A DNA stretch of 25,780 nucleotides. It comes from a virus. Below the pieces are notes generated by a model. That model had not been told where the DNA came from, ran no database searches, and was given only the letters and a program-made list of their open reading frames with translations. The stretch is from the IMG/VR virus record IMGVR_UViG_3300032296_001972, positions 1 through 25,780 of that record; one strand, given 5' to 3'. The position numbers were made by a program, and so were the translations under genes. Below, piece by piece: positions 6,814-24,399 of this stretch; positions within the stretch are counted from its first letter, which is position 1; each line of letters begins with the position of its first letter.

Positions 6814-7413
6814 CTACAAAAGTTTAGAAAGGGTTTCTCCTATTACTTTACCGTCTTGTTTGAGTTCCACATAAGAATTTTCTATGTTTTTTAATTTATG
6901 TGTCCACTCAAACCCAACCATACCGACTAGTTCTATACCGCGCACTATTGGATATACCACAGCGGTTTTTGTGCCTCTTTGAGCAAAAAAGGCACGAGTT
7001 AAAATATCATCTATATCTTCTGTTATTGGAAATATACCACGTTCACTTCTAACAACATCAACTAAACCAGAATAAAGAGAAATCGGAAGATTTTGATATT
7101 CTTTGAATTCTGTTGAGACGCCGTCTTCGAGTGCTTCAAATGTTGTTGAAAGTTTGGTCATTGATTTGCCCGTACCGTATTTACCGCCATTGTGACGTTG
7201 AAGGATAAAGGCACGTTGTGCTCCATACTCATGGAGTTGTTGTTCTATAATTGTTTGAACCAATTTTGATTGGGAAATTTCGCGGGTAATCTTACGGTGT
7301 TTGTATTCGCCGTACTTGTACTTCAGGAACCATGAGAGAAATACACCCAGTAGGGTGACTGCACTTGATACTCCAAGTCGTATCACATCTATGTAATCAG
7401 TGAATAGTTCCAT
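6814..7413 (-). CDS. Membrane-anchored GAF-like domain protein
   Basis: This 199-residue protein has one predicted transmembrane helix near the N-terminus (about 10-30, GVSSAVTLLGVFLSWFLKY), followed by basic residues (KYKYGEYKHRK), which suggests a cytoplasmic C-terminus. Residues of about 60-175 look like a divergent GAF sensory domain: RAFILQRHNGG (68-77), a middle KLSTTFEALEDGVS segment (87-100), and a terminal strand pair with AVVYPIVRG and ELVGMVGFEW (151-170). The small-molecule ligand, if any, is unknown. The short GAF fold without a kinase or cyclase suggests a sensor or protein-binding role at the host inner membrane; a holin-regulating or superinfection role is speculation. It lies 9 bases upstream of phoH and shares its ribosome site region. 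There is no clear Shine-Dalgarno sequence before its own ATG, which follows an inverted repeat. Confidence 0.6.
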   Translation of the reverse strand: MELFTDYIDVIRLGVSSAVTLLGVFLSWFLKYKYGEYKHRKITREISQSKLVQTIIEQQLHEYGAQRAFILQRHNGGKYGTGKSMTKLSTTFEALEDGVSTEFKEYQNLPISLYSGLVDVVRSERGIFPITEDIDDILTRAFFAQRGTKTAVVYPIVRGIELVGMVGFEWTHKLKNIENSYVELKQDGKVIGETLSKLL

Positions 7414-7490: not shown

Positions 7491-8171
7491 TTATCTTCGT
7501 ACTCCACGCGACCACACCGAATACTGATAATACGTTCCCCAATCTGGTATTGGAACGGCAGGATTGGGTACCCAACTTCTAATAGCAATAGCGTATGCTT
7601 TTGACGCCCATTGGGCGGCTTCAAAATCAGATAATTTACTAAATTCTGTTGCATCCAATAGTGGGTTGTAAACAGCAAACGGAGAAACTGGTATATCTTC
7701 ACCAGAAACTACAACATTAGGGTAATACAGTTCACCAGCGACGCTTACACCAAATTGAAAATTCTGTGGTTTAATTTCTCTTTTAACAACTAACCCAAGA
7801 ACAGTTATGGTAGTTCTAATTGCACGTAAAATATCCAAATCAAAGGTGGAAGATGCCTCAAAAGTAATATCTATATTTTTATCAGGACATCTAGACGGAT
7901 TATATTCTGAATGAATATCCCAACCAGGCAGTTTTGCTTCTGCCAAAAATCTAGGTAAAAAGGCTAGCCTAACTATACAGGGCATTGTCCCTAAAGATTT
8001 CGTTCCACCCACATCAGTTAATTCTTCGATAAATTCCGTAGTTAATTTATCTTCAAAAATTAAGTCTTCTTTGTAACGATAAATTGGAATTTCTGGAGGA
8101 ATCGGTTTTCGTATTAGTTTTCGTTGTATATTATCATCCGTTTCACACGCTTGATTTAATGTTTCTGCCAT
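7491..8171 (-). CDS. Conserved-looking unknown protein (226 aa)
   Basis: I do not recognise this 226-residue protein. It has a proline-rich stretch at 23-33 (KPIPPEIPIYRY), a mixed alpha/beta middle with ATG-proximal Cys9, and a Trp-rich end (SWVPNPAVPIPDWGTYYQYS) finishing in Arg-Gly-Val-Arg-Arg. No membrane segment, signal peptide or enzymatic motif is visible. Its ATG has AGGAG 8 bases upstream, within the 23-base gap after the 2017-residue giant, so the two are likely cotranscribed and perhaps partners. The size and the position at the end of the giant-gene block would suit a baseplate or tail-fibre adaptor protein (like T4 gp11 or gp53 by size), but no motif supports that. Confidence 0.75.
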   Translation of the reverse strand: MAETLNQACETDDNIQRKLIRKPIPPEIPIYRYKEDLIFEDKLTTEFIEELTDVGGTKSLGTMPCIVRLAFLPRFLAEAKLPGWDIHSEYNPSRCPDKNIDITFEASSTFDLDILRAIRTTITVLGLVVKREIKPQNFQFGVSVAGELYYPNVVVSGEDIPVSPFAVYNPLLDATEFSKLSDFEAAQWASKAYAIAIRSWVPNPAVPIPDWGTYYQYSVWSRGVRR

Positions 8172-8194: not shown

Positions 8195-11100
8195 TTACTT
8201 CTCATAATCACACTTACAATTTTTACGTCTTTTCTTTTCTTCCTCTAACAATTTTATAAATGTTTCATTTGCCAAATCAATTTCATATTGACAATTTTGA
8301 GTAATTATAGGTCGTGAATTTTCATTATCTTTTTTATATGTGTTAGTACCAACATACTCAGCAGAAAACACATCACAACAGGAAGATAGTGTATCAGGAC
8401 TACGGTCGGCGGCCTCTACTCCATATTTGCGTCGTATTAACCATATAACTTCTTTTTCAGTTATTTGTTTATAACTTTTACCAATAATATTGGTATAAAT
8501 CGGTTGCTTCCACACATCATCCCCTGAATCTATAATAGCATATAATGCCCATTTGTTTATTAATGGATTTGATAATGTCAAAGCATTAGAATTAATTGCA
8601 AATTCACCATATTTCCATAACTGTGAAGAAACTGTTGGAGCACCTGAACCGAATAATATATTATCCTTTATGTGATGAAAATGACCCCAACTATCAAATC
8701 CATATTTCAATTCACTGGAATATAATGACAAACTATCACCATCCGGAGATGAAACATTTGGTCTGAAACTTTTGAAACTATAAGGTGTAATTAGACTATC
8801 AGGTGAGTGTTTAGTATTTTTCGATGTTCCATTATTTAATATTATTTCATCAAAAACACTTGGTATTTGTGGCTTTCTTAAAACCCTATATTGTTTAGAA
8901 GGCATTGAACAATAAATATATTTAGACAGATCTTCCGCCGAAGATATTATCACATCTGGATAGAAAAATGTAGTTTTAAACATATAAGTTAGTTGACTGT
9001 TTTCATGTTTATATCCATATCTAAAAAAAGAACCAGGAAATGTATCGTAATTTGAACTGCGGTCTACATATGGAAATTCTACAACATTATTCCAATCTTG
9101 AAAAACAGTCGCAGGTGTGCGGATTGAATCCCAAGTTTTATTCATCGACCCAATATCAAATGAATTTGGTGCAGCATTTATAATAGGATTATACATAATA
9201 GAATCCTGTCCCATTCCATTTTTTGATGTAATGGTTTCTCTAGTAAAACTACTATAGCTTTTATGATATTGTGAATTGTATAGTTTAATATCTTCCTTGT
9301 ATTCATTTTCCCAATACAATTTGCTTATCTGTCCTGAGTCATAAAATTTAGATTTTGCTACCTTTAAAAATGCACAAATGTCCGTGTCATCCATATTTGA
9401 GACTAATATCTCAGCGTCAGTTTTTCCGGCATTAATACCACCAGTATGTTTATATGTATAAAATTTTACGTTCTGTTGCTGTCTAAATGTTAAACCAGTA
9501 TTCCCAGTCGCGGTTGAATTTTTATCTGGCCGTTGACTTGTACTCACCAATTCATAAGTTGGTGTATAATTGCCATTGGCATCTACCTTTGGTATTGTTT
9601 TTGTCCGACCATTCGAATCAGTTACTATTTCCGTCTCAATACCAATTGGAATTTTACCAGTTGGTGATTTAGAAATTTTAACTTCTCCAAATGATTCAGC
9701 ATAAGGCGCTTCTAATAAATTTTTTGAAGTTGCCTCTGCAAGTAATGATAAAAACTCTTCTCTACTAGCTTGTTGTTTAAATGCCGCAAGGACTATATCT
9801 ATTCCTAGAGATAAAAGAGTTATACTTAAACTAACCTTCCATCCTAATCCAGTTTTCAACCCATTATATAACTTTTCCAGTCCAGGAACTTCTTTTCCTG
9901 CCGCTTTAGCAAGATCTATGTATTTTTTAAATTTATCGCTTATAAAGATACTCCAAAGTGCAGAGACTGTTGAATACCCCATAGTCATTGTAGTTGACCA
10001 CAACCCATAAACATCATCTTTTGATTTTATCCCGTCTAGTTTATACCCAAGTGTTTCAACTTTAAGTAAATATCCTGCCCAATTTACATATGCTTTGAAA
10101 TTATGAAATGATTCCCAACTTTGGTGCGCATTAACTAAAGCCTGTTCGAAGAGCGGAAGGCCTTGGAGGTCTTGTAGTTGATCCATCATAGTCTCTAAAC
10201 CAGTAATAGTAGGCGATAAAAACGCTTCTTTAAGTACAGTTGTAAAAATAGTTGCACTCAGACCACCATATGTATTTAATGCTTTGTATTTAAGATTTCC
10301 ACCGGAAGATAATTTCAAACCATCAGACTTTGATTTTACTCTATTCCTATGATCTTCTACATTTTTTACGTTATTTAAGGTATCTTTATATCCACCATGT
10401 TCTAAATCAAAAAAGTTAGTAATAACATAAAAATCTCTAGGGTTACGACCATATATGGTATCACTATCATTGACTAATTTATATGTTTCACTTCTTCTTG
10501 CCAAATGACCAGCTAATAAACTAACATTAATAATTTTTTCATAGCATGAATTTAAATTGGTAGATAATAATTGAGTTAAATCTGGTCGTATAATATGTCT
10601 CATATATTGAGTGACAGACTCACACCCATCGGTTCTAAATTTTCTATCGGAGTCCCATGTTGTGTTGTTTGGAAAAAGTGAATACTTTCCAGATGACCAC
10701 GGTCTTTTACTTCTTGGATTGTCATTCGGTGTATCTAATCCAGATACAAAAATTGTAGAATACCGATAAACTGATTTTTTTTCTTCTTCCGATAAATTTA
10801 GAGGGTCTGAACCACAGACTATATAATGTTTAGTATCAATTCCTAATGATGAAAATTCGCCAGCAAACCCTTCGTCCATGTGTTGAATTTTTTTAGCCGC
10901 CGCAGCACCTGGACCTTGTCTTGTATTAACATCTTCTGTCCAATTGCCGGCTTCAAATGGGACTTCTAAAACTTCGCCGGTTTTTAATCCATCATAAACA
11001 TATTTTGCCCAGTTTTCAATTTCATAAAATGCTGCTAAAGCCTTACCATTTGAAATTAAATTTGAAATAAGTATACCATTTGACATTTTTGGAGTTAACA

Positions 11101-14100
11101 TTTTAATTAGTTTTTTAGCATAACCATCTGTATTTTTTACAGATTCTTGACTTGGAACTGGTGGAGTTTTTAAAGTTCCTTCAGTGGCTTTCCTCACAAC
11201 CCAATCCCAGTATTGTATAACAGAATACACATTTGTTGGTCTTTCAGACGTATCATCGTAGTTATATCGAAGAAGTGTCTCAGGAATCATTAAGTCACCA
11301 TAATACAAAGAATGGGGATTGTAAACATCATTCATAGCACTAAGAACATAATTTAGACCAAGAGTCTCAGTTGCAACAGCCATATCACCAACACTTTCAA
11401 GAATTTGACCTGTCCAACTTTGTTCAGATTTTGATGCCTCTGCCCTTCTTGTTGTTTCGAGTGCCCATGATCTATTATCATCCATGAACTCAGGATGTTC
11501 TTTCTTAATTTTTTCATCAATTGGCACATGAATCAAGTTAGTATATTGGTCATAATTATAAATTATCGGTGTCAAGTATCCTCTAACAATTGGATATTTA
11601 AAATCTTCACTTGATTGCCAAAGTTCTTGTCTTGGTGAAGCTGAAATTCCGTATTTATATCTTATCCAGAAAACCATTTCTTGATAACTCACTGGCCAGT
11701 CTACTCCATCAATTTTTACTTTAAAAACATTTGTGACTTTTTGATCACGAGAAGTAAATGTAGCGGGCCCTTGAAGTCGAAACGTATCATTTATACCAAT
11801 TGTTGTTTCTGGTCCTCTACCAATATTTCTCATATTTTTTATGTAAAAATTTAAACATTCTTCCAATTGTAGAAGTGCCTTCTTGTAGTCCTTGCCGCCA
11901 TCGCCCAAAACAAAAACAGGGGCCGGTATTACATTATACCATTCGCCGACTGGTTTTTCTGGACTGTCAAATCCCAGACTACTTTCCATTTTGATTGGTA
12001 TAGATCTAAATATAGTGTTGCGTCTCAATGGATGAGTTTCAAAATAAGCATTAAGTGGTTGAGTTACTGATCCACCAGATCTCTCTATCCAACCAGCCCA
12101 ACTACTAATTTTACCAGGTTCTCCTGCCACATTTCTTATTCCAATACCATCTTTAAGTCTATTTTGAAATTCTTCTGCCAAAAGAAATCCCTTATTCCCC
12201 ATAAAATCACCATAGTACGGGTTTATTTTTTTACCAAATCCCTGAGTAATATCAAATTCTACAGTGTTTTCACTAAATTGTTGCCAGTCAAGTGAACTAT
12301 ATGCGTTTGTTTTTTCCCTGGCATTTCCAGATGGCCCATACAACCATTGGGGACTATAAAAAACAGAAATTCTAGTATCATTTGCATAATGATTTATTTT
12401 ATCATTTTGCCAAAGTGATTTATTCTTTAAAAATTGATGATCTGCCGGTGCGTGATTCAATGCCTGATATGCAATAAAAGAACTGTTCCACTTTTGAAAA
12501 TTTGTATCTGAAAAATTCATATAAGTCGATGTCAAAGATGGAAACACATAAGCCATTGACAAATCACCCAAAAAGACAGCCTCATTTGGTTCAAACATAG
12601 TCACATCAAAATGTTGCAGTGTATTTTTAACACGAGCGGCCTCTGGATGAATTTGTTTTTCTAAATTTTGATTTATCCATTGGGCCCCACCTGGATCAGC
12701 ATTTGTAGCAGTTCCGTCTGGATTTTTCCAAAATCGTAGAAAATAATCCGGATCTGGAGTATCTGGATTTCGTCTTGAATATTCGTTTCTGATTAATTTT
12801 AGAAAGGAATCATTACAAAAATTTGTATTATCAGAAACATGGCCCCATGGTGGTAAAAAATGACCTCGCCATCTACCAGTTCCATTTGAATCAAATAAAT
12901 TTTCAGTGGATTTAATCGGTGATGGGCCAAATGCCCAATCTCCAGGATTAATTGGTAATTCTGGTATGTATCCAAGTTTCACCCGAGCCTCCATACAACC
13001 ACCATCTATATCCATCCCCGCATTTGATTTAGCGGTAACTTTGTATCTAGACTGTGCCTTTTTTGGACTAATATAATTTTTGTCATTATTTTCAGAATTC
13101 CTAATATCTAAAAAATAATCACGAGGATTATCCAGCCAACCACCACGTCCATTTGTCATTCGGTCTATATGTTTTGATGTGACAAAATATTCAACAATAT
13201 GTGTTGTCCAAGGAGTCCCATTCCAACCATTCCATTTTCCATCTGCTTTTAATTTTTGACAGGCTATAATTTGGTCTAAACCCAAATTTTGTATATCATT
13301 TGATGTTGGACTATCAAATCCACCCACACCCGGTTTTCTCTTCCCATTCGAAACAGAATAATTACCGACCCAGCCCCCAAAAGCCTCCCAGCCTTCGTTA
13401 AGACTAACATATGAATCAGAAACATAGTGCAATCCATGCCTTGCCCGTATGGCAAATACCTTTTGTCTGTCAGAATATTCCGTAGAATTCAATATGAACG
13501 TGATGAAATTATCATTCATAGTCCCTTCTTCTTCAACAAAAAGTTCTGGCTGATCAAACGGATACTTTTTCACTTTTACTTTTGTATTCGTATCATATGA
13601 ATTCAGAGCTGTGTCTTTTCTCCACCCGTTTGAACCATCACCCACCGAACCAGTATACCAAGAATATTTCCCATATCCTATACCAGCTGGGTGTTTATAT
13701 TTAAGTGTATTTTCATCTAAAGAATTTTCTTCAGGAGATTGTCTAATTGTCCATCCGGAAATTTCTATTTTCTCATATTGATATGGACCAGCCTCATTAG
13801 CAGTACCGAAGTTTCCAGCCTTTATCATCTGATTATAATGGTCTTCATTTAATTTAAAAAGTGGAAATATTAAAGAATACCCACCCCTTTCCGATAAATT
13901 TTTTTGACCAAAAGTTTTACCTTTATATGTTTTTCTATTATTCACCGCTCTTTGTGTCAGACCACCATATGTTCCTCTGGGTATATCACGTAATGTTGTA
14001 GTATATAACCAATTATTTTTTCTAGTCTTTTCAGTTAAAAACCACTCAGATGCCCAATCTTTTGGGGTAGGTGCAAAACAAATAGCAGAACCATCATTTT

Positions 14101-14248
14101 CAACAAATTTTTTATATAACCAGTCTAATTCTCGGTTACTCATTCGTTTCATCAATTCTGGAACTTTTGTACCATCCGCATACTTTAATTTAGTGTCAAC
14201 GTCTGAAATAATTTCAGACATTTTTTTATATTCTTTTCTTTTTGCCAT
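8195..14248 (-). CDS. Giant protein of unknown function (2017 aa)
   Basis: This is the largest gene in the window and matches no family I know. The first 850 residues are Trp-, Tyr-, Gly- and Asn-rich with many short aromatic-proline strands, typical of extracellular beta-rich virion proteins. Residues of about 1330-1500 are helical and contain two hydrophobic stretches (about 1415-1436 and 1472-1490, SLSITLLSLGIDIVLAAF). A short motif resembling VFxIRxKYG occurs near residues 262-272, 857-867 and 1932-1943. The C-terminus is basic with two cysteine pairs (SSCCDVF; NCKCDYEK). There is no signal peptide. The ATG at 14248 lacks a strong ribosome site; the ATG ten codons in is an alternative. 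It lies 25 bases after a 73-residue gene and upstream of the neck operon, where T4 carries baseplate and fibre genes. A baseplate, tail-tip or neck-appendage role is inference. Confidence 0.9.
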   Translation of the reverse strand: MAKRKEYKKMSEIISDVDTKLKYADGTKVPELMKRMSNRELDWLYKKFVENDGSAICFAPTPKDWASEWFLTEKTRKNNWLYTTTLRDIPRGTYGGLTQRAVNNRKTYKGKTFGQKNLSERGGYSLIFPLFKLNEDHYNQMIKAGNFGTANEAGPYQYEKIEISGWTIRQSPEENSLDENTLKYKHPAGIGYGKYSWYTGSVGDGSNGWRKDTALNSYDTNTKVKVKKYPFDQPELFVEEEGTMNDNFITFILNSTEYSDRQKVFAIRARHGLHYVSDSYVSLNEGWEAFGGWVGNYSVSNGKRKPGVGGFDSPTSNDIQNLGLDQIIACQKLKADGKWNGWNGTPWTTHIVEYFVTSKHIDRMTNGRGGWLDNPRDYFLDIRNSENNDKNYISPKKAQSRYKVTAKSNAGMDIDGGCMEARVKLGYIPELPINPGDWAFGPSPIKSTENLFDSNGTGRWRGHFLPPWGHVSDNTNFCNDSFLKLIRNEYSRRNPDTPDPDYFLRFWKNPDGTATNADPGGAQWINQNLEKQIHPEAARVKNTLQHFDVTMFEPNEAVFLGDLSMAYVFPSLTSTYMNFSDTNFQKWNSSFIAYQALNHAPADHQFLKNKSLWQNDKINHYANDTRISVFYSPQWLYGPSGNAREKTNAYSSLDWQQFSENTVEFDITQGFGKKINPYYGDFMGNKGFLLAEEFQNRLKDGIGIRNVAGEPGKISSWAGWIERSGGSVTQPLNAYFETHPLRRNTIFRSIPIKMESSLGFDSPEKPVGEWYNVIPAPVFVLGDGGKDYKKALLQLEECLNFYIKNMRNIGRGPETTIGINDTFRLQGPATFTSRDQKVTNVFKVKIDGVDWPVSYQEMVFWIRYKYGISASPRQELWQSSEDFKYPIVRGYLTPIIYNYDQYTNLIHVPIDEKIKKEHPEFMDDNRSWALETTRRAEASKSEQSWTGQILESVGDMAVATETLGLNYVLSAMNDVYNPHSLYYGDLMIPETLLRYNYDDTSERPTNVYSVIQYWDWVVRKATEGTLKTPPVPSQESVKNTDGYAKKLIKMLTPKMSNGILISNLISNGKALAAFYEIENWAKYVYDGLKTGEVLEVPFEAGNWTEDVNTRQGPGAAAAKKIQHMDEGFAGEFSSLGIDTKHYIVCGSDPLNLSEEEKKSVYRYSTIFVSGLDTPNDNPRSKRPWSSGKYSLFPNNTTWDSDRKFRTDGCESVTQYMRHIIRPDLTQLLSTNLNSCYEKIINVSLLAGHLARRSETYKLVNDSDTIYGRNPRDFYVITNFFDLEHGGYKDTLNNVKNVEDHRNRVKSKSDGLKLSSGGNLKYKALNTYGGLSATIFTTVLKEAFLSPTITGLETMMDQLQDLQGLPLFEQALVNAHQSWESFHNFKAYVNWAGYLLKVETLGYKLDGIKSKDDVYGLWSTTMTMGYSTVSALWSIFISDKFKKYIDLAKAAGKEVPGLEKLYNGLKTGLGWKVSLSITLLSLGIDIVLAAFKQQASREEFLSLLAEATSKNLLEAPYAESFGEVKISKSPTGKIPIGIETEIVTDSNGRTKTIPKVDANGNYTPTYELVSTSQRPDKNSTATGNTGLTFRQQQNVKFYTYKHTGGINAGKTDAEILVSNMDDTDICAFLKVAKSKFYDSGQISKLYWENEYKEDIKLYNSQYHKSYSSFTRETITSKNGMGQDSIMYNPIINAAPNSFDIGSMNKTWDSIRTPATVFQDWNNVVEFPYVDRSSNYDTFPGSFFRYGYKHENSQLTYMFKTTFFYPDVIISSAEDLSKYIYCSMPSKQYRVLRKPQIPSVFDEIILNNGTSKNTKHSPDSLITPYSFKSFRPNVSSPDGDSLSLYSSELKYGFDSWGHFHHIKDNILFGSGAPTVSSQLWKYGEFAINSNALTLSNPLINKWALYAIIDSGDDVWKQPIYTNIIGKSYKQITEKEVIWLIRRKYGVEAADRSPDTLSSCCDVFSAEYVGTNTYKKDNENSRPIITQNCQYEIDLANETFIKLLEEEKKRRKNCKCDYEK

Positions 14249-14273
14249 ATTTTTATCTAATAATAAAACAAGA

Positions 14274-14495
14274 TTATCGGTGGTTTCCTAAATATAGATC
14301 TGCCAGTTCTTTTGCCCAATTATACACATCCAATGGGTCATCATTTTTAAAGTCCGGAGGATTATTCATTAATAGTTTATATTTTTTTTGAACATCTGAT
14401 AATTTTACATTTGGTACTTCTTCACCCAATGTAATTTTATTATCATGTATTTCTGATTTGTTATTCAAAAGTTCTTTTAATTTTACATACTGCAT
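14274..14495 (-). CDS. Small unknown protein (73 aa)
   Basis: This short acidic-basic mixed protein contains two likely helices: residues 33-45 (KLSDVQKKYKLLM) and 57-70 (LDVYNWAKELADLYL). No motif, membrane segment or signal is visible and I do not recognise it. It is packed 17 bases after the 214-residue gene and 25 bases before the 2017-residue giant, with AT-rich codon use like its neighbours, which supports it being a real gene. The upstream ribosome site is weak (CGGAAAA). It could be an assembly partner or chaperone of the following giant; this is position-based only. Confidence 0.7.
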   Translation of the reverse strand: MQYVKLKELLNNKSEIHDNKITLGEEVPNVKLSDVQKKYKLLMNNPPDFKNDDPLDVYNWAKELADLYLGNHR

Positions 14496-14512
14496 AGAGT
14501 TTTTCCGATAAG

Positions 14513-15157
14513 TTAATATGAGTAGCCACCAAGTGATTGCCCTAGACTAGTTAAAAAGTTTTTCAATCCACTTGTTTCTTTTTTTGCATTTTTAATTACT
14601 TCTTCCATTTCCGGCAAAATATCTATGAATCCAACGGTTCCGGGGATAGGTAATCCTTTTTCATCGTATAATTGACCAGTTTGTGGATCTCTAAACTTAT
14701 TACCTTCCCCTGCACCTCGATGTATAAATCTAATAACCTTTGGTATTAGTGTTTCAAAAAAATCAGGTTCCTTTTTATTAGCAAGTATAAATCTTTGTAT
14801 ATCTTGTTCTTCTCTATCGTATCCATCACTTGGGTGTTCTCCCGTATCTGGAAGATTTCTTTTTGCTAAAGCGTTTTGTCTTAATTTTTCTAATGCGTTT
14901 TGTATTTCTTTACGTTCTTTATCTGAAATCAAAAATTGAGTTATGGGTATATAATTTGATATTTCATCTTCCCCAAATGATTTTATTCTATTATATAAGG
15001 CATACATTCTTGCAAGTCTAACTCTATTTGGTAATTTTGATATATCCATTGATATATCAAAAGGAACTTTTTTAGAATCTTCTTGAATTTTATTTCTTAT
15101 TTCCGTCAAAGTTTTATCCGCCTGACTTAATAATTCATGTCTACTACTTAATTTCAT
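14513..15157 (-). CDS. Unknown helical protein (214 aa)
   Basis: This protein is mostly helical and charged in residues 1-125, with heptad-like segments (LTEIRNKIQED; KERKEIQNALEKLRQNALAK), then a Gly/Pro linker with FRDPQTGQLYDEKGLPIPG (about 159-177), and a Gly/Ser-rich end finishing in GGYSY. I do not recognise the family. The ATG has GGAG 8 bases upstream, and a TATTTATA motif lies about 28 bases upstream, so it probably begins its own transcript that continues into the 73- and 2017-residue genes. The FRDPQTGQLYDEKGLPI pattern looks like a small surface loop. A scaffold-like or wedge-like partner of the giants is possible but unsupported. Confidence 0.75.
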   Translation of the reverse strand: MKLSSRHELLSQADKTLTEIRNKIQEDSKKVPFDISMDISKLPNRVRLARMYALYNRIKSFGEDEISNYIPITQFLISDKERKEIQNALEKLRQNALAKRNLPDTGEHPSDGYDREEQDIQRFILANKKEPDFFETLIPKVIRFIHRGAGEGNKFRDPQTGQLYDEKGLPIPGTVGFIDILPEMEEVIKNAKKETSGLKNFLTSLGQSLGGYSY

Positions 15158-15184
15158 TGAAATACTCCATTCTAGTCTGTATGA

Positions 15185-15194
15185 TTATAAATAT
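15185..15194 (-). promoter_or_regulatory. Candidate late promoter motif before 214-aa gene
   Basis: The coding strand reads ATATTTATAA, with the TATTTATA core 28 bases upstream of the ATG at 15157, in the 52-base gap after the 1099-residue giant. It matches the elements upstream of the tube, the sheath and the gene after the capsid. Promoter function is inferred. Confidence 0.4.
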
Positions 15195-15209
15195 CATATT
15201 AACTTAAAT

Positions 15210-18200
15210 TTATACAGGTCGGCGGCCATCTTCTTTATTACCAATTTTTTCACAAACACAGTAGTAAGAACCTTTTGGATTACATTCATTTCCAGATAAA
15301 TATCTTTTACTGATTCTAAAAGTTCTACTCCATCCTGTTGGATCGGGCTCTTCTGGCCATTTACCAGATTTTCCGCGGTATGTCCAATAAACTATAACGG
15401 ACTCCGGTTCTATGGCATTCGGACCTTGCGTTTCTATATCATCAGGAACATAATTACCCCTAGTGCCTAATGGAATTAATGTATCACAAAAATCTAATTG
15501 TTTGTATATGGGAGTTTTTCCATTGTAGCCAGCTATATACTCTCTTTGCATTCTATCTAATTCAAATTGAACTGTTTCACAACTAACTACACTCGCAATT
15601 GTTATTTTATTCGATACTATCTCAATCGTACCAATCTCTTGTCCATCTTTTTTATAAAGAGAAACCTGTGGACTTTTTTCAAATCCATCTTTTTCAAGTT
15701 CTGGAATATCTGGTTTTTCAGTTGATTCTGGTCCTTTTTTAACAAAAAGACCACGTATATCAGACGCAAACCTTGGCCAGAGTTCCATATTATATGCCTC
15801 TCTCTCCCATTCTAATCCGGGTTTTCCTAGAGAATTTTGCCAGACAATTCCCGTTATATCACAAGGACCAGTTGGTATAGGAAGTCTAAATCTCGCTATC
15901 TCACTATTTGAATTTATTCTTATAGGTATCACCACATTATTTGAATCCACAACATAATAAATCCTATTGCCTAAAAATGTATACCCATCCGGAATAGGTT
16001 GGAAATTGTTTCTAACATATCTTATTTTTTTATCACGAGTAACTGGATCACGATATGTTTCTCTTCTAAATGGTTTCCATTCTTCAGCGAACGGCTCATA
16101 TGAATTTGTATACCAAGGGCCTAAATTTTTAACATATCTATCCAAAACCTCTGGTAATTTATTTGAACTTATAAGTTGTGTCCATGATTTTCTCTTTAAA
16201 TCCACCAAAGCATCACCCAACACACCAAAATATAGTTCTAATTCATCTATATATTCACCAAATGTATCATAGTCCGTCGTTTCTTTAAAATCTTTAAAAT
16301 GACTTCTAGCATTGGTGAGTGGTATATTTGGATTAGTCCACCAATATCCACCGTCTCGTAAATCTAATGATTTTGGAAATGGCGATTCCTCAAAAACTTT
16401 TTCATAAGTAAGATATCTACCCTTGTCACCATCTTCTTCATAATCCCAATCCATATTCACACCAGTTGTATGGATGAGATTAAAGACAGTAGTGATAGCA
16501 GTCCCAATACCAGCCCCTGGAGCTAATATATCTGCAGCATAACTACCTATCTGAACAATCAGTGCTACTACATCTAAATTTACTCCGTTAAAATCACCAG
16601 TTCTCAAAAATCGCATAGTAGAATCAAAGTCAAAAGTAAATTTATAACCACGAGCATCTATCTGATTATTTAACATCTGTATTTCTTGAGTAACAGCTGT
16701 AGTCTGAACCGTAAATGGTATTGAACTTTCTTTTGAAAATGTATCACCAGGTGGTTTTCTTAGTATCATCATTACACCACGGAAAGCAGAAGCATATTTT
16801 TGGTATGCATCTGAAAATTCTTTTATAGAAGTAAATATATTTTCTTGTCCTTTATTAAATTCATCATCTAATGGTTTTTTTACAATAAATTGTTCTTTTT
16901 TTGGAGGCAATACAAATCTAACATTTTTCAATTGAACTAACATTCCATTATATTTTGATGGAGACGGTCTACTTACCCATGGGTTATTTTCAGGTACTTT
17001 CCAAACTATCTCTGAATTTATTTCTGGAATATCTTTTTTGTAATCTTCTAATTTAAAAATAGGAATTCCTCGTAATTCATGATTTTTTAGTATAATTGGG
17101 GCCGGTGCTTTTCTATCTATTTCGTCCACTAAGAAATCGGAACTCATTATATAAGGCATCCCTGTATTTACTGGAATCGGTGTTCCAGTAGACCACGGAT
17201 GGTCTTCTTGAACGGGATATAGTGCATATTCGTCACCTTTTATACCCCTTGGCGCTACGTCACGGCCAATATCCTCTGGGTGTAAAAACCATTTTACAGA
17301 AGTATCTATTCCAAGTAAGCCTTCTACTATTCTATGATTTTGAGCAGAATCTTTTAGTCCACCCCATCCATTAATATAAGGTGGTCTATTTAATCCCTTT
17401 CTATTACGTCTTAAACTTGCAGCAGTACAATCATCAGCAGGAGCGGCCCTCAAATATCTTTCTGGTATCATATCTTCGGGTGGTGCGTCATAATAGGATT
17501 CCCAATCTATTGGATCTCTATCTCCGTATGGGCCATATAGTTCCTCCCAATATCTTGGTTGCATACCAAGTACACTATGCCAGTATTTAAAATTAGTTCC
17601 AATTTCAATTGCAATCAAATCACCTACGCGTAAAAATTGTCTATAATCTGCCTTCGGAATCATTATAGAACCCATATGCATAGTATCTGCATATAAATTT
17701 GGATTTGAAAAATTAAATTTATATATTTTTGGGTGGTACATATATCTAGTATCAGAACCAAGTGATATACCAATAGCACGGTCTGATTCATCCTGTATGA
17801 AACAAAGTCCTGTTGGGATCATTTCATCACCTGGTTGTCTACCCTTACCCAATTCAGCCTGTCTGAATACTTCATTTTTATCGTAATTTAAAAATGAATT
17901 GGATTGAATCCCACCAAAAACACCACTCCCCGCCGTAACAAATCCTATTACTATTTTATTTGAACCGTAAAACCATGGTTCAAATTCAGGATATCCCTGA
18001 AGTATATTTTCTCTAAATCCCCACTCACGTCTTTGTTTTTTATCAACTAGATATATCGGTTCGTTTGAACGTCTCACTCCAGTTTTCGCATATCGTAATT
18101 CTCCAGTTATTGCACCAAATAAATCAGATGATGGTTTTGTGAGGGTTGGCCAATTTTTTGGCCAATTTGCTTTAGTATACCAAGAGTCAGAGGCCCAATT

Positions 18201-18509
18201 ACCCGGAGATAATGTATCAAACATTCCACTAAAAGTCGCATCATAAAAATCATACGGAGGAAGTGGGTCAATTACTTTATTTTTAACACGAATATCTTCA
18301 GTACCATTAGTTTGAATTCTACTATCTTTAAATTGATTTTTTGTAAGAAAATCAGCTATAGTAATTCTATCAACTTGATTTTTTTGTGAATTTATCAGTT
18401 CCATTATACGATTAGTCGCGTAAGACTTCCACTCAGTATAAGACGAAAATTCATCTGGTTTAGGAAATCCATGAATATTCAAAGTGGCTGGATTTAATAT
18501 ACTATTCAC
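15210..18509 (-). CDS. Giant protein of unknown function (about 1099 aa)
   Basis: I do not recognise this protein. It is Trp/Pro/Tyr-rich throughout (for example WASDSWYTKANWPKNWPTL), with a hydrophobic Gly/Ala stretch at about 647-679 (VVALIVQIGSYAADIL, then APGAGIGTAITTVFNLI) and a Cys-bearing C-terminus (GSYYCVCEK). Start choice: the frame is open back to 18602, but that overlaps the upstream small gene by 101 bases. The GTG at 18509-18507 has GTGGAG 8 bases upstream and overlaps the small gene's stop by only 8 bases (GTGAATAG), a typical coupled arrangement. The ATG pair at 18542/18539 is the alternative but has no ribosome site. The composition and the hydrophobic stretch are shared with the 2017-residue giant, so the two may belong to one structure. 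A tail or baseplate role is inferred from position only. Confidence 0.88.
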   Translation of the reverse strand: MNSILNPATLNIHGFPKPDEFSSYTEWKSYATNRIMELINSQKNQVDRITIADFLTKNQFKDSRIQTNGTEDIRVKNKVIDPLPPYDFYDATFSGMFDTLSPGNWASDSWYTKANWPKNWPTLTKPSSDLFGAITGELRYAKTGVRRSNEPIYLVDKKQRREWGFRENILQGYPEFEPWFYGSNKIVIGFVTAGSGVFGGIQSNSFLNYDKNEVFRQAELGKGRQPGDEMIPTGLCFIQDESDRAIGISLGSDTRYMYHPKIYKFNFSNPNLYADTMHMGSIMIPKADYRQFLRVGDLIAIEIGTNFKYWHSVLGMQPRYWEELYGPYGDRDPIDWESYYDAPPEDMIPERYLRAAPADDCTAASLRRNRKGLNRPPYINGWGGLKDSAQNHRIVEGLLGIDTSVKWFLHPEDIGRDVAPRGIKGDEYALYPVQEDHPWSTGTPIPVNTGMPYIMSSDFLVDEIDRKAPAPIILKNHELRGIPIFKLEDYKKDIPEINSEIVWKVPENNPWVSRPSPSKYNGMLVQLKNVRFVLPPKKEQFIVKKPLDDEFNKGQENIFTSIKEFSDAYQKYASAFRGVMMILRKPPGDTFSKESSIPFTVQTTAVTQEIQMLNNQIDARGYKFTFDFDSTMRFLRTGDFNGVNLDVVALIVQIGSYAADILAPGAGIGTAITTVFNLIHTTGVNMDWDYEEDGDKGRYLTYEKVFEESPFPKSLDLRDGGYWWTNPNIPLTNARSHFKDFKETTDYDTFGEYIDELELYFGVLGDALVDLKRKSWTQLISSNKLPEVLDRYVKNLGPWYTNSYEPFAEEWKPFRRETYRDPVTRDKKIRYVRNNFQPIPDGYTFLGNRIYYVVDSNNVVIPIRINSNSEIARFRLPIPTGPCDITGIVWQNSLGKPGLEWEREAYNMELWPRFASDIRGLFVKKGPESTEKPDIPELEKDGFEKSPQVSLYKKDGQEIGTIEIVSNKITIASVVSCETVQFELDRMQREYIAGYNGKTPIYKQLDFCDTLIPLGTRGNYVPDDIETQGPNAIEPESVIVYWTYRGKSGKWPEEPDPTGWSRTFRISKRYLSGNECNPKGSYYCVCEKIGNKEDGRRPV

Positions 18510-18759
18510 TTGGCGATTCTCCACTTTGTATTTTGACATCATTTTCAATAGTAATATTGGAAGCATCTCCAATATTTTTGGTTTGAATATGGATTTTAGC
18601 AATATTAATTAGATTAATAGTATCTTCAAATATTTTTAAAACCAATTTACTAGCTTCGGTGGCTTTTTCGTCATTAGTTATCTTTGGAATTGCAGTTTCA
18701 ACTGTTTTCTTCGATAATTCATAATATTTAATTATTCCATCTATTCTTTCTATATCCAT
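18502..18759 (-). CDS. Small helical unknown protein (85 aa)
   Basis: This is an 85-residue mostly helical protein. Residues 1-60 (MDIERIDGIIKYYELSKKTV, then helical segments to IAKIHIQT) suggest a two-helix bundle, ending in a polar Ser/Glu-rich tail (IQSGESPSE). The ATG at 18759-18757 has GAGGT 6 bases upstream; the frame extends 9 codons further to a TTG, but that start lacks a ribosome site. It lies between the two giants, 33 bases after the stop of the 1545-residue protein, and its stop overlaps the likely start of the 1099-residue protein. The size, helicity and coupling suggest a cofolding partner or chaperone of the downstream giant, by analogy with phage fibre-assembly factors; there is no direct evidence. 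Confidence 0.75.
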   Translation of the reverse strand: MDIERIDGIIKYYELSKKTVETAIPKITNDEKATEASKLVLKIFEDTINLINIAKIHIQTKNIGDASNITIENDVKIQSGESPSE

Positions 18760-18792
18760 AAGTATACCTCGATAAAAATTCAACAAAACAAA

Positions 18793-21700
18793 TTAAAGTT
18801 TATATTTTGGAATAAATCCGGGAGTAAAACTGCACCCATTTAAAGCGATCGAAACTATTTTAGATGTATCATCTAATCTTTTCTTAACACCACCCTTTTC
18901 AGACAAAATTTTATAATTGATAATCAGATTTGCAGTATAAACTTGATCATAAAATTTTGGAGTAAATGCTATATTCAAATTGTAGACAGGAGATTCTGTA
19001 AAATCATATTCTTTAAATGGTTTTAAAATTTGATTTAATATTATTTTATTATTTTCAATTACTGAAAATTCTCCGTCTTTGATTGTTACATATTTAAAAT
19101 ATGGCACGGGACTTGATGAACCACCATAATCTTCGAAATATTTTGGACCAATCATTCTTGTTAGTTTATTAAATCCATCTACATCTCTATCATGTGATCG
19201 CTGTGGATAAATAAAATCTATACTCTCTATGAGAATATCGTCGTAATCCAAAATATTAGTCAATTTTAAAGATTTTATAAGTAATTTACTTGGGTCTCTA
19301 GTATCGTAAAATGTTTGCCCATCGAATTCAAAATTTTCATTTTCGGCTGCTATATCTCCAAAATATAATTCCTGTTTACAGTCAAGTGGCTGTATAGAAG
19401 ATATCTCTGTATTTCTAAAACGATATTTACTAGTAGGCATTCCAGAAATATAAATTTTCTTGTAAAAATAATTATTTCCCAATTTTCCTCTTATAATTAG
19501 GTACACATCATATAAGAACCCATGTTCTGCATATTCAGGAAAAAATGTTATTGGAATTTTTGGCATCGAGGAGTATTCATATGAATTATTTATATCCAAT
19601 GGGTTTACCGTAAATCCACTCATAGATTTTCCAGTGATTTTTATCAAGGGGTCTGACTGATTTGGTATTTGTTCTGTATTCAAATAAAAATGATCATAAC
19701 CAGAATTTTGATATATATCAGTCCTTGCCGTTTTTTCTAAAAATATCTCATCTATTTTGAGAATTTTATCAGTCCTATTTATTATGTGTATATTTTTTAC
19801 ATACTTGCCCAATAATTTTTGCACTTCACGTTCGTCTTCAATTGTTTCTGGAAGAGTTGATACATCTTTTACCATGCCAAATAAAACAAAAGGTGGTATG
19901 TAAATATCATCATTATTTGGAAAAAGTGTAATTGCTAACAATGTTTCAGAAACCATAGCATTTATTGACTCTAATTCACTAAGATCTAATTCATAGTCGT
20001 CATTTTCTTTATACTTTATACAAGATTTTATTTTTTCAACATAGTGGAGTATTTCATTCCAAGAAACGCCACGGATATGCATTTCCATTAACATATAATA
20101 TAAATCAAGTATTGGTGTTTTATCTCTTAATACAAGAACTTCCGCATTCGAGTTTCCCGTCTTTAAATACTCACTCAATTCATCTGGTATTCCGGATGAT
20201 GCTAGTTCAGCTTCCCATCTGTCATATAAACTCAATATTGTATTTGGTTCTCTCTTTTTCCATGCTATATCACCGTGAGTTGAACCAGCATACAAATCAT
20301 TTTCTGCCAATCCGTTTAAATCTGTTGTTCTTGTTGGTTCATTCCACATTGGTGGAAAAATAGATGGATATTGTCCCCATGTAAAATCTGGCCAAATCTT
20401 TTTATCTGATTTATTGTGTGGATAACCAAATGGAGTCTTTTTATTGTGAGGATGTGGGTGTGAATATGGGTGTCCAGCATCTGATGACTTATTTGGTTTC
20501 ATATTTAAATAAAATATATCTAAAAGTGGATTTATGCCATATTTTTTTACTCGTCTCTTCATCATTGGTCTAGTAAATATACGAGTCAAGGTATCTGACG
20601 ATGAAAGGTCATTCCCGTCTTGATTTACAGAATTTATAGACTGTGTATTAATTGTACTTCTATGGATCAATGATGATTGTCCATTAAAAATATTATCACT
20701 ATTCTGATTTATAATAGTCTTAAGTGTAGTATTTTCTGTGTCATCAGAGGAAACAGATACGCCGTAATTTTTACCCTTATAGTATAATGTATCTATTAAA
20801 TTGTTCTTTTTTAAAGTTCGTATATCTGCATTTATTTGCATTTCATCTTGAAACCCTAAAAACATCACAGGACACGGTTCCATCATAGTCCTATATAAAC
20901 CAGTTCTTGATTGCAATACTACTCCACCTTCTTTAAACATTCTTAGTGGTTGTAATGAGTTTCTTGGTGGATTCGGAGCATATAGATCCATAACAGTGTT
21001 TAGATAAACATATTCCAAAGCATCTATTGTTATTCTTGTTGCCAAAGCTATTATTGCATTATATTGCGTATCAGTCAATTTAAATTCTGGTTCTTGAGGT
21101 GTTGGTTTAAATTTTATATATCGTTCTATAGCTCGCATCGTATTCGATATGTCTCTAACATTTGGCAAATTTGGGATTGCGACTTGTATATCAGTTCCAG
21201 GTAGATTTATTACATTAGTAAAAAAATTAGTAATAAAGGTCGGGGCCCAATAAAAAGGATTGAATGCCTCTTTATTTTGATTTTCTATAGAATTTACTAA
21301 TTCATTTGTATTTTTTACAGATATGGCTTCATCCAATCTATCATAAATATTTTTAATTAAAAATGGTGGAGATGAATCTTCACTCCCACCTTTTCCAAAT
21401 TCATTATTTCTATATTTCATGAAGTCGCCTAATGTTTCTATAGAATCCCATCTCGGCATAACTTCAGTTGAATTCATAAGACGTTGAAATATTGGTCGTG
21501 TCATTGCTTTCCATCTTGAAACCAATTTTCTATCATTTCGTTCAGACCAATCATCATCTGGATATGAAATGTGCCAGTCTTCCCATCGTATCCAATTATC
21601 ATATGTTACAGTCTTTCCCTCAACATAATCTTGATCGGGTACGCCAAGAGTCAAATCTTGAATCAAATCATTTATATGAGCCTGGTCATGTATTCTAATA

Positions 21701-23430
21701 TCCACATCTGAGATTATATTTCCCAATATATCCGCCCACCAATCTGGTAATTTACTGGCTCGTTCTATTTCTCTTCTATATTTTTTTGTTTCGGAATTTT
21801 CAAATTTTCTATACATTTCTACAAAAAATTCTGGAACAGAAATAATAGATATTTTATCACCACACCCAAATGCAGATTCGCCAATATATTCTATAAAAGA
21901 ATGACCATCGCTAAATTGAGTTAGTCCATCCGTGCCGCACCCCAGTTCTAATAACTGTTTTCCATATCCTCTAATTCCAAATACATTATGTATGTTATAA
22001 CGTATCTGTTGAATATAATTTTCCACTATAGGCCCAACAAATTCTGGAATATCCCCATCTTTATCCCTGAATTTTGGTACCGCTTCAGCATCACAAGTAT
22101 TACAATTATATACAATATTTAATATACCTTTTTGTAAATCTTTACTGGTTGGATTTGGTTCTCTTGGGTCGCGTATACCGTCTGTGATTAATTCAGATTG
22201 AAAATTATGTTTTACAAATGTTAAGTCAGTTGAATCGACTTCTGTTGGATAACTGATATCGGCTGGGGACAAGGTTGTTGAGGCGCCTTGAATTGGATAT
22301 TCACTTTTATAATTTCCTTTTTGTTCAATTGGAAATGATACTTCATTACCATGACAATCCATAGCCAATATTGGGAATCCAGACATTTTTGGAAATTCAT
22401 CAAATGGAAAATTTGGATCAGAAAAATAAACTCTATCATCTACGTCGTCCACACCATCTCGTTTATCGTCGCGCTTGTCTTCTCCACCACCAGTATCAGT
22501 AGAGCCAGATGGTATACACGACCCCGTATTGAAATATAAATTCAAAAAAGTTTCCCTATTCAGCAAAAGAACAGGCTCACGGTCACTCGCTTTTGCACCA
22601 AAATCAATACTGGTACCACGTAATCTTCCCCACTTACCATCAGCTTGTGGCAGAGTGAAGGGATTATTGAAATGTTCGGTTATTGTTGCAAGATATAAAT
22701 CTACACGTCTTATTGGATTTGTTGGTTTATACGTTGCACTTAATTGAACAGAGTCAAATGGGCTTGGTAATAAGTAGTCGCCATCACCACGTCCACGTTG
22801 ATAATAAAATTCAGTGTCCCAATTAGGAACACTCCCATTAATCACTACATTCTTAAAATACTCATTAATACCCATACCATAAAGTTTTGGACCTATTAAT
22901 CCTAAATTATTTTCTATATTTGGGTCTATTGGAGCAAGTTGTTCTAAAGCGGGTAGGCCTACATTTGTACGACCTTGAGGCCCATCTGGACCAGTAACTA
23001 ATCTAAAATTATCAATATAGAAATTGTCAATATCAAAATAATGTTCAGAGTGTGGTTGTTTCCCTGAGCCAGTTGGTGTGAGTTTACAGTCTTTATAGTA
23101 AAATGACGCTCGTGACTTATTAATTACCACCCAACCAATTTCGTTTACAGTTTTAACCATCTCCCCTCGTTCAAGGGTTTGACGAAATTGTTCAGGTGTC
23201 ATCGTATCTATTTCATTTGGATTTCTTCGTTTAGTGTCAACTGTTACTTTATCCAATAATCCAAGTAAATGAACATTTTGTATAACGCCCAAAAAATCAG
23301 AAGTCCCTCCGGGAGTTTGTGGCGTATCTAATGTATATGTAGAAAATCCACCGTCCTCGACCAAACCAGCTGTTTGAGGAATTGCTGTCTGATAAAAATT
23401 TTTAAATTTATATCGTGTTATAATCGCCAT
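18793..23430 (-). CDS. Giant protein of unknown function (1545 aa)
   Basis: This begins the giant-gene block and matches no family I know. The N-terminal 300 residues are beta-rich and polar; residues 312-334 form a Gly/Asp/Lys/Arg-rich charged linker (GGGEDKRDDKRDGVDDVDD); a CxxC pair lies at 443-446 (NCNTCDAEA). A His/Pro cluster, HPYSHPHPH, occupies 987-995. The last 250 residues are again beta-rich (repeated strands ending in FTPGFIPKYKL). There is no signal peptide or membrane helix. The ATG at 23430 has AAAGGAAAA upstream, and a TATTTATC motif lies 63 bases further up. HxH-type clusters coordinate metal in several phage tail-tip and fibre proteins, which would suit a receptor-facing or baseplate role, but this is inference. 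Codon use is AT-rich, unlike the capsid gene, which suggests moderate copy number. Confidence 0.9.
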   Translation of the reverse strand: MAIITRYKFKNFYQTAIPQTAGLVEDGGFSTYTLDTPQTPGGTSDFLGVIQNVHLLGLLDKVTVDTKRRNPNEIDTMTPEQFRQTLERGEMVKTVNEIGWVVINKSRASFYYKDCKLTPTGSGKQPHSEHYFDIDNFYIDNFRLVTGPDGPQGRTNVGLPALEQLAPIDPNIENNLGLIGPKLYGMGINEYFKNVVINGSVPNWDTEFYYQRGRGDGDYLLPSPFDSVQLSATYKPTNPIRRVDLYLATITEHFNNPFTLPQADGKWGRLRGTSIDFGAKASDREPVLLLNRETFLNLYFNTGSCIPSGSTDTGGGEDKRDDKRDGVDDVDDRVYFSDPNFPFDEFPKMSGFPILAMDCHGNEVSFPIEQKGNYKSEYPIQGASTTLSPADISYPTEVDSTDLTFVKHNFQSELITDGIRDPREPNPTSKDLQKGILNIVYNCNTCDAEAVPKFRDKDGDIPEFVGPIVENYIQQIRYNIHNVFGIRGYGKQLLELGCGTDGLTQFSDGHSFIEYIGESAFGCGDKISIISVPEFFVEMYRKFENSETKKYRREIERASKLPDWWADILGNIISDVDIRIHDQAHINDLIQDLTLGVPDQDYVEGKTVTYDNWIRWEDWHISYPDDDWSERNDRKLVSRWKAMTRPIFQRLMNSTEVMPRWDSIETLGDFMKYRNNEFGKGGSEDSSPPFLIKNIYDRLDEAISVKNTNELVNSIENQNKEAFNPFYWAPTFITNFFTNVINLPGTDIQVAIPNLPNVRDISNTMRAIERYIKFKPTPQEPEFKLTDTQYNAIIALATRITIDALEYVYLNTVMDLYAPNPPRNSLQPLRMFKEGGVVLQSRTGLYRTMMEPCPVMFLGFQDEMQINADIRTLKKNNLIDTLYYKGKNYGVSVSSDDTENTTLKTIINQNSDNIFNGQSSLIHRSTINTQSINSVNQDGNDLSSSDTLTRIFTRPMMKRRVKKYGINPLLDIFYLNMKPNKSSDAGHPYSHPHPHNKKTPFGYPHNKSDKKIWPDFTWGQYPSIFPPMWNEPTRTTDLNGLAENDLYAGSTHGDIAWKKREPNTILSLYDRWEAELASSGIPDELSEYLKTGNSNAEVLVLRDKTPILDLYYMLMEMHIRGVSWNEILHYVEKIKSCIKYKENDDYELDLSELESINAMVSETLLAITLFPNNDDIYIPPFVLFGMVKDVSTLPETIEDEREVQKLLGKYVKNIHIINRTDKILKIDEIFLEKTARTDIYQNSGYDHFYLNTEQIPNQSDPLIKITGKSMSGFTVNPLDINNSYEYSSMPKIPITFFPEYAEHGFLYDVYLIIRGKLGNNYFYKKIYISGMPTSKYRFRNTEISSIQPLDCKQELYFGDIAAENENFEFDGQTFYDTRDPSKLLIKSLKLTNILDYDDILIESIDFIYPQRSHDRDVDGFNKLTRMIGPKYFEDYGGSSSPVPYFKYVTIKDGEFSVIENNKIILNQILKPFKEYDFTESPVYNLNIAFTPKFYDQVYTANLIINYKILSEKGGVKKRLDDTSKIVSIALNGCSFTPGFIPKYKL

Positions 23431-24387: not shown

Positions 24388-24399
24388 CATATAAATATG
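24388..24399 (-). promoter_or_regulatory. Candidate late promoter motif after capsid terminator
   Basis: The coding strand reads CATATTTATATG, with core TATTTATA at 24397-24390, 40 bases before the ATG at 24349. It lies about 14 bases after the capsid terminator stem, the same arrangement as between the sheath and tail tube. Promoter role is inferred from recurrence. Confidence 0.45.

Follow-up and report, generated by a model that had tools for sequence, protein, structure and literature searches.

In a T4-like phage, why should three giant genes separate the major capsid gene from the neck genes, and what might their products do? The genes lie in a metagenomic fragment of 25,780 nt (IMG/VR record IMGVR_UViG_3300032296_001972), which we analysed at its full length and call the window. 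The genes that frame them, in window coordinates, are the following:

24461..25780, minus strand: gp23 major capsid protein, truncated at its 5' end by the window edge; flanks the cassette on the left (Pfam Gp23 E=1.9e-64; PHROG major head protein)
24412..24435, minus strand: intrinsic terminator after gp23 (terminator scan)
6814..7413, minus strand: o199, conserved gene bordering the slot on the right (61-83% identity among relatives with or without the cassette)
6079..6804, minus strand: PhoH-like ATPase, right flank (60% identity to the PhoH of Microcystis phage Mel-JY01)
4918..6069, minus strand: gp13-like head-tail adaptor of the neck (phrog_211, head-tail adaptor Ad2, E=5e-14)

The surroundings are T4-like, as had been claimed: gp23 lies on one side, and PhoH, the gp13-like adaptor, sheath and tube lie on the other. 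Judged by its gp23-type major capsid protein (70% identical to that of Mel-JY01) and by the synteny of a contractile sheath (Phage_sheath_1 E=5.7e-16) with the gp13-like adaptor, the phage belongs to a T4-superfamily lineage.

The giant genes and their small partners

The three giant open reading frames of the original prediction were confirmed on the minus strand, encoding 1545, 1099 and 2017 residues (G1545, G1099 and G2017), and their order is kept in other contigs; because frames of such length recur in the same order in relatives, they are not due to chance. Four small genes that the prediction did not list, o273, o85, o214 and o73, belong to the same block, whose order is o273, G1545, o85, G1099, o214, o73, G2017 (small, giant, small, giant, small, small, giant). 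The search for homologues in other gp23-bearing phages that the prediction had proposed recovered the cassette in three further IMG/VR contigs: L094, where it is complete (314, 1657, 80, 1544, 200, 73 and 2146 aa, then o199), L017, where it is compact and lacks o85 (207, 851, 462, 156, 66 and 761 aa, then o199), and L006, where it is cut by the contig end (315, 1719, 87 and 448+ aa). These relatives were reached through a capsid search and family alignments; scans with single window proteins missed all of them. The features of the block are:

24391..24397, minus strand: late-promoter-like TATTTAT, 45 nt ahead of the o273/o274 start and found at the matching position of L006 and L094
23528..24349, minus strand: o273, Asn/Ser/Thr-rich, first cassette gene; position and motifs common to relatives
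18793..23430, minus strand: G1545, giant protein 1; homologues in L006, L094 and L017
18502..18759, minus strand: o85, small protein with Shine-Dalgarno sequence and start; similar to the 87-aa protein of L006 (z 3.8), with the 80-aa protein of L094 in the same slot
15210..18509, minus strand: G1099, giant protein 2, 1099 aa from a GTG with Shine-Dalgarno sequence (open frame 1130 aa); homologues in L094 and L006
16473..16577, minus strand: hydrophobic stretch inside G1099, LDVVALIVQIGSYAADILAPGAGIGTAITTVFNLI (hydropathy); the aligned place in L094 is also hydrophobic
15187..15193, minus strand: late-promoter-like TATTTAT, 36 nt before o214; the L094 counterpart stands at the matching position, 35 nt ahead of the 200-aa gene
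14513..15157, minus strand: o214, small protein; 200-aa homologue in L094 (E=0.001)
14274..14495, minus strand: o73, small protein directly before the third giant; homologues of 66 aa in L017 and 73 aa in L094
8195..14248, minus strand: G2017, giant protein 3; co-linear with L094 and L017 proteins
13436..13465, minus strand: G2017 motif copy 1, QKVFAIRARH (motif search)
11651..11680, minus strand: G2017 motif copy 2, QEMVFWIRYKYG (motif search)
9779..9835, minus strand: hydrophobic segment of G2017, VSLSITLLSLGIDIVLAAF; the stretch best conserved with L094 and L017 comes next
8423..8452, minus strand: G2017 motif copy 3, KEVIWLIRRKYG (motif search)
7491..8171, minus strand: o226, which ends the block and is particular to this window; absent from L017 and L094, with no relatives found

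The homologues of G1545 (25-34% identity) are most alike in the N-terminal ~200 aa and least alike at the C-terminus, which the 851-aa L017 copy largely lacks. G1099 shares 34% identity with the 1544-aa protein of L094 over residues 42-949 and 33% with the partial L006 homologue. The G2017 counterparts measure 2146 aa in L094 (best pieces E=7e-7 and 5e-4) and 761 aa in L017; a short motif occurs three times in the window protein, three times in that of L094 and once in that of L017, is absent from shuffled sequences and, among 3633 ORFs, is exclusive to G2017-type proteins. The small proteins follow the same pattern: o73 matches its L017 homologue at phmmer E=5.6e-4 (z 6.7) and its L094 homologue at E=0.006, and stands immediately ahead of the third giant in relatives too, while o273 and its counterparts in L006, L094 and L017 have in common VMPNP and a repeated [TI]N[TSK][FY], with no significance in whole-length alignments of the window copy to those of L006 and L017. 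Comparison of G1545, G1099 and G2017 with one another gave no support for homology among the three.

The giants had been described as matching no recognised family, rich in Trp and Tyr and devoid of signal peptides. The first statement is borne out: the cassette proteins gave nothing above cutoff in Pfam, PHROGs, NCBIfam or PADLOC, PDB sequence and profile searches with the proteins or their families gave nothing meaningful, the giants matched none of 50,697 phage records, tblastn of the cassette proteins against phages and plasmids gave no match, and neither did scans of bacterial and archaeal genomes with G1545 and G1099. For composition, Trp is indeed elevated (1.2, 2.4 and 2.4%, where gp23, the gp13-like protein and sheath have 0.7-1.0%), but Tyr is not (5.2-5.6% vs 6.3% in the gp13-like protein and 5.4% in sheath). 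No hydrophobic N-terminal signal was found in the giants. The L094 homologue of G1099, alone, gave a match to DUF5689 (PF18942; E=0.015, 15.7 bits vs a cutoff of 28.6), and a Pfam profile search of the window protein gave none; it is possible that G1099 contains a divergent DUF5689/OB-like region. Hydrophobic, partly glycine-rich stretches are found in G1099, G2017 and their L094 relatives; those in G1099 and G2017 are unusual for a simple fibre and, as such, speak against an appendage.

An accessory cassette beside a recombination junction

In 16 relatives with capsid proteins 70-83% identical, including Mel-JY01, the slot between gp23 and o199 holds instead 0.1-3.9 kb of unrelated small genes. 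Across genomes the slot spans 0.1 kb to 17 kb, and its content varies between close relatives; because most of the close relatives examined lack the giants, these are accessory. The capsid tree has too little resolution to tell whether the cassette carriers form one clade. The small slot proteins of the other relatives are helical and resemble internal or membrane-active proteins more than fibres, which sits poorly with an appendage. Eight of them form a helical, hydrophobic family with a match to a phiKZ internal-head-protein profile that lies far below the Pfam cutoff (E=0.052); AlphaFold2 on this family gave an unusable model (pLDDT 36).

Presence or absence and variation in content at a fixed site, both seen here, characterise a hyperplastic region. 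That of T4-like cyanophages lies between g15 and g18, inside the structural module, where 4-14 genes predicted to act in metabolism have been inserted (PMC2984593). Both loci place variable genes within a conserved T4-like virion module, with content that differs between close relatives; the cassette, however, sits between gp23 and the neck genes, is one co-linear set with three giants, and has late-promoter-like elements. A second comparison is offered by an immuto-like sister clade (L030, L050, L061 and others). In the corresponding interval, from the capsid gene to the gp13-like gene, it too carries giant genes whose length varies widely (1214-1976 aa), but their sequences are fibre-like, with SGSFSG repeats, and homology to the cassette proteins was not detected. 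Blocks of several genes for novel proteins that adjoin the head module, and that related phages gain or lose as a whole, are a further parallel; in that case others have reported the products to be in virions, whereas the cassette belongs to a T4-superfamily phage and has no sequence match in the phage collection.

The DNA of the window is ~94-96% identical to that of L006 and L094 in the capsid region, and this identity ends just past the terminator (window ~24373; blastn and position-wise identity), beyond which identity to L006 falls to ~35-40%. Between L006 and L094, a stretch of 3529 bp with 98.9% identity runs on into the first cassette gene and stops after about 110 of its codons. We considered, and dropped, a swap limited to the cassette: between the window and L094, dS is 0.12 for the capsid gene and >1 for the flanking neck genes, so that the neck genes are old as well. 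With old neck genes and a recent capsid gene, the junction, which is located at or just past the capsid terminator, is a recombination edge, and the neck genes are a fair yardstick for the speed of the cassette. By that yardstick dN is 0.66-1.24 in the cassette and 0.05-0.12 in o199, PhoH and the gp13-like gene, a protein-level divergence of the giants roughly 6-18x that of the adjacent neck genes.

That the block is an assembly chimera or a set of spurious ORFs is hardly credible: the window is a 25.8-kb metagenomic fragment and its DNA identity to relatives shifts sharply beside the capsid gene, but the gene order recurs, with its flanks, in independent contigs, and the junction position differs between genome pairs, as expected from recombination.

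TATTTAT is found in 89 of 276 ORF upstream regions with a distance peak 35-46 nt before the start, and in Mel-JY01 it precedes 10 of 33 virion genes vs 2 of 35 replication-region genes. The cassette has the same element at the same spacing as before virion genes (in L094 at matching places, 42, 44 and 35 nt before starts), and from these signals it appears to be switched on together with the virion genes, i.e. late.

Possible roles of the cassette products

Late-type control together with fast divergence would fit a host-facing part of the virion. With moderate confidence, we hypothesize that the cassette is an accessory module, expressed late, that encodes a virion structure in contact with the host, probably an appendage attached to the head or neck. 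Because AlphaFold2, run on G1545 residues 1-1200 with an alignment of three sequences, returned an unusable model (mean pLDDT 27), the mechanism is one that we infer. The 15-kb stretch would be a fast-evolving accessory cassette inserted between capsid and neck genes, with products made late that assemble together into an extra host-facing structure, most likely on the head or neck. The conserved N-terminus of G1545 may dock on the particle while its diverging remainder interacts with the host surface, and phages may exchange allelic versions of the cassette by homologous recombination at its conserved capsid side. Membership of the products in the virion is likewise inferred from sequence and gene context. 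More broadly, and tentatively, three co-inherited giants and their small partners may form an undescribed multi-protein virion machine, either an optional head or neck appendage or an ejected complex, exchanged by recombination beside the capsid gene.

The main rival to an appendage is that the giants are cargo: packaged in the head or tail, they would enter the host with the DNA as one large complex, able to cross the cell envelope or act on it, much as internal head or ejection proteins do. It draws on the hydrophobic stretches, on the position of the block directly after the capsid gene and on the helical, hydrophobic family in the same slot of related phages, whose weak phiKZ match, however, falls far short of its cutoff. 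The head would also have to accommodate about 4,660 residues of giant protein, and, on reading the sequences, the giants have no N-terminal sequence in common with the small slot proteins that might serve as a capsid-targeting signal. We consider such a complex unlikely, if worth keeping in mind.

A lesser chance still is given to late-made proteins that stay outside the virion, for example for the host surface, lysis or competing phages. A place in the structural operon is no proof of assembly, non-structural genes also occur in T4-like hyperplastic regions (PMC2984593), and PADLOC, which gave no match, covers known defence families only. Against this, no signal peptide, enzyme or defence domain was found, and so large a co-inherited set would be unusual for single effectors. 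A search of the literature collection at hand on Mel-JY01 and immuto proteomics found nothing.

The original prediction had suggested a baseplate, tail-tip or neck appendage. Its undescribed giants in the structural region and a possible neck appendage are retained, but a relocated baseplate, tail-tip or tail-fibre set now seems quite improbable. Size, fast divergence and lack of homologues do resemble distal tail proteins. Nevertheless, in Mel-JY01 and L017 alike the tail/baseplate module (hub-like protein, tape measure and gp25-like wedge) is encoded downstream of the tube, and because L017 has the cassette as well as a complete module elsewhere, the cassette does not look like the baseplate. 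Most relatives examined do without it, so that it is not part of the conserved essential tail module. Searches of Pfam, PHROGs, NCBIfam and PDB with window proteins and family profiles gave no significant match to gp6, gp7, gp10, gp12, gp34-37 or wac, and no fibre, adhesin or depolymerase domain is recognisable in the cassette proteins. In T4, wac (fibritin) maps upstream of gene 13, a position that resembles that of the cassette. Compared with wac and the baseplate and fibre genes 7-12, however, the cassette giants are far larger and without sequence match, and the cassette is dispensable in relatives, whose baseplate genes sit elsewhere.

Through recombination, accessory modules that have diverged deeply can thus come to sit next to capsid genes that are almost identical. 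If the products of the cassette are in the virion, they would constitute an optional host-interaction device of >4,600 residues, outside all database families and evolving much faster than the neck genes. The cassette is a defined locus at which determinants of host range or entry may be sought in a poorly studied branch of the T4-like phages.

Gene layout and relatives of the cassette

The genes of the window, a 25.8-kb viral fragment from IMG/VR, lie on the minus strand, and the interval between the capsid gene gp23 and o199 (the slot) is occupied by a cassette encoding three giant proteins, named G with their residue count, and several small ones, named o.

Genes of the window from gp23 through the cassette
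24461-25780, minus: gp23, cut by the window edge (Pfam Gp23, E=1.9e-64)
23528-24349, minus: o273, first cassette gene after gp23
18793-23430, minus: G1545
18502-18759, minus: o85
15210-18509, minus: G1099, GTG start with a Shine-Dalgarno sequence
14513-15157, minus: o214
14274-14495, minus: o73
8195-14248, minus: G2017
7491-8171, minus: o226

Tailward of o226 follow o199, PhoH, a gp13-like adaptor (head-tail adaptor PHROG, E=5e-14), more neck genes, the sheath (Pfam, E=5.7e-16) and the tube. The 1130-residue open reading frame at G1099 is a mere open-frame extension beyond the GTG start. The original prediction of three unmatched giants among T4-like structural genes is borne out: the reading frames were confirmed, gp23, adaptor and sheath flank them, and the giants have no match in Pfam, PHROGs, NCBIfam, PADLOC, PDB or 50,697 phage records. 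Of the unusual composition claimed for them, the raised tryptophan content stood, but tyrosine is ordinary among virion proteins of the same phage.

Searching other gp23-bearing phages, indirectly via the capsid protein and via family alignments, recovered cassette relatives in at least three further contigs. L094, whose capsid protein is 99.3% identical to that of the window, encodes proteins of 314, 1657, 80, 1544, 200, 73 and 2146 residues, followed by o199, PhoH and the gp13-like gene; L006 (capsid 97%) encodes 315, 1719, 87 and at least 448 residues up to the contig end; and L017 (capsid 83%) has a compact cassette of 207, 851, 462, 156, 66 and 761 residues, followed by o199. Homology is firm for G1545 in all four, for G1099 in the window, L094 and L006, and for o73 in the window and L017; it is weaker yet co-linear for o85, o214 and G2017 (for the last, pieces at E=7e-7 and 5e-4 in L094 and z 3.3 in L017). 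The 462-residue L017 protein was assigned chiefly from its position in the gene order (to L094, E=0.008; to the window, no significant match), and the window o273 from its position together with short motifs.

In at least 16 other relatives with capsids 70-83% identical, Microcystis phage Mel-JY01 among them, the slot is just 0.1-3.9 kb long and, in the matches listed, holds small genes unrelated to the cassette. One slot family has eight helical, hydrophobic members that conserve both the N-terminus (SLKxLxNEVxSE) and the C-terminus, and perhaps comprises internal head proteins. The DGHHRWAA motif of another slot gene is reminiscent of ParB-like nuclease domains. In the immuto-like sister clade, different giant genes occupy this interval, past PhoH; they are fibre-like, with SGSFSG repeats and up to 1976 residues. 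A ribosomal protein S21 (RpsU) gene is annotated within the Mel-JY01 head gene module (L002 16837-17064).

Slot genes in relatives and the sister clade
L008 12483-13862 and 13877-15163, L010 12551-13864, L011 11054-12409, L015 3233-4636, L016 12527-13894, L018 11413-12831, L019 8108-9400: eight-member family
L008 11455-12444, L010 11441-12451: DGHHRWAA genes
L030 7297-12240, L050 5247-11177, L061 12085-17280, L064 12085-17259: immuto-like giant genes

Divergence and probable recombination at the slot

The DNA of the window and L006 is 94% identical through gp23 and its terminator (window 24435-24412) and about 35-40% identical past it. L006 and L094 share 98.9% identity across 3529 bp, up to about 110 codons into the first cassette gene. 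That the junction shifts between genome pairs points to recombination rather than a single insertion. Between the window and L094, dS is 0.12 for gp23 and above 1 for the neck-side genes o199, PhoH and gp13-like; therefore, recently shared capsid genes adjoin older cassette-plus-neck segments. For the same pair, dN is 0.05-0.12 in these neck-side genes and 0.66, 0.73, 1.00 and 1.24 in G1099, G1545, G2017 and o273, the giants' divergence being roughly 6-18 times that of the neck-side genes. Cassette gene lengths differ two- to threefold. Conservation along G1545 is highest in the first 200 residues (41-43%, window versus L006) and lowest in the C-terminal part, which is mostly absent from L017.

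Related proteins are encoded immediately 3' of the capsid gene in L017 (11417-12796), L004 (21465-25216), L032 (11449-12963) and L083 (11449-12519), the L017 product matching REase_MTES_1575 and the Mom family below threshold. Exchange at the post-capsid site could be driven by a homing-type endonuclease.

A late-promoter-like element

TATTTAT is the commonest 7-mer upstream of open reading frames in the clade, present at 89 of 276, and its positions peak clearly at 35-46 nt ahead of the start; it precedes virion genes in the window, L002, L006-L025 and L094, and in Mel-JY01 it stands before 10 of 33 virion genes versus 2 of 35 replication-region genes. The window has copies just past the gp23 terminator (24391-24397, 45 nt before o273), 71 nt before G1545 and 36 nt before o214 (15187-15193), with others at about 3033-3039 and 492-498, some 35-46 nt before virion-gene starts. 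In L094 the first gene has a copy 42 nt upstream, the 80-residue gene one at 44 nt and the 200-residue gene one at 35 nt. The late elements of T4 and cyanophages, TATAAATA and NATAAATA (PMC2984593), are not enriched upstream of open reading frames in the clade; TATTTAT is the reverse complement of part of the T4 element TATAAATA. We infer that it is a putative late promoter of the clade, and the cassette would then be expressed late, alongside the virion genes. Before o199, TATTTAT lies only 12 nt from the annotated ATG in the window (about 7419-7425), L094 (21381), L017 (21003) and others, with 11 cases counted, which suggests leaderless transcription or a true start farther downstream.

Possible role of the cassette

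We hypothesize that the cassette is a host-facing virion module: it is accessory, keeps a fixed gene order, carries late-type control elements and evolves quickly around a conserved N-terminus. This is the best explanation, and we give it about an even chance. Its main rival, appreciably less probable, is a complex that is packaged and ejected: G1099 and G2017 contain hydrophobic stretches, matched at aligned places in their L094 relatives, and helical, hydrophobic proteins occupy the slot in other relatives. That these are late proteins outside the virion seems less likely again. The baseplate role originally proposed for the giants is unlikely: 3' of the tube, Mel-JY01 encodes a tape measure protein, a gp25-like wedge and a protein resembling the baseplate hub (PHROG, E=9e-12), and the carrier L017 has the same series downstream (about 29-62% identity). 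As L017 owns both tail module and cassette, the cassette is an addition. After the tape measure gene, Mel-JY01 and relatives (L087 6572-13339) encode a further giant protein, 2255 residues in Mel-JY01, whose homologues in L017 and L091/L092 are of different lengths and give several overlapping alignment pieces, a sign of possible internal repeats.

The motif E-x-x-[FW]-x-x-R-x-[KR]-[YH] occurs three times in G2017, three times in its L094 relative and once in that of L017, and was absent from all other protein types among 3633 open reading frames and from shuffles; the L017 copy lies within a SHOCT-like Pfam match that stays below threshold (E=0.008). DUF5689 is matched, also below threshold, by the L094 relative of G1099 (E=0.015), and structure prediction of G1545 residues 1-1200 gave an unusable model (pLDDT 27). 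The first cassette protein (window 23528-24349; L006 8356-9303; L094 3200-4144; L017 13346-13969) is of low complexity, with repeated [TI]N[TSK][FY] and VMPNP-type motifs that are possibly short docking peptides.

The closest parallels in the literature are the hyperplastic regions of T4-like structural modules (PMC2984593) and phage 0305phi8-36, where exchangeable blocks of novel virion proteins adjoin the head module (PMC2147016); the organisation is alike but the sequences are not. The giants are real, unusual protein families, without match in any library searched, that sit in a hypervariable slot, and the genome organisation of their cassette is of a kind already known in phages.
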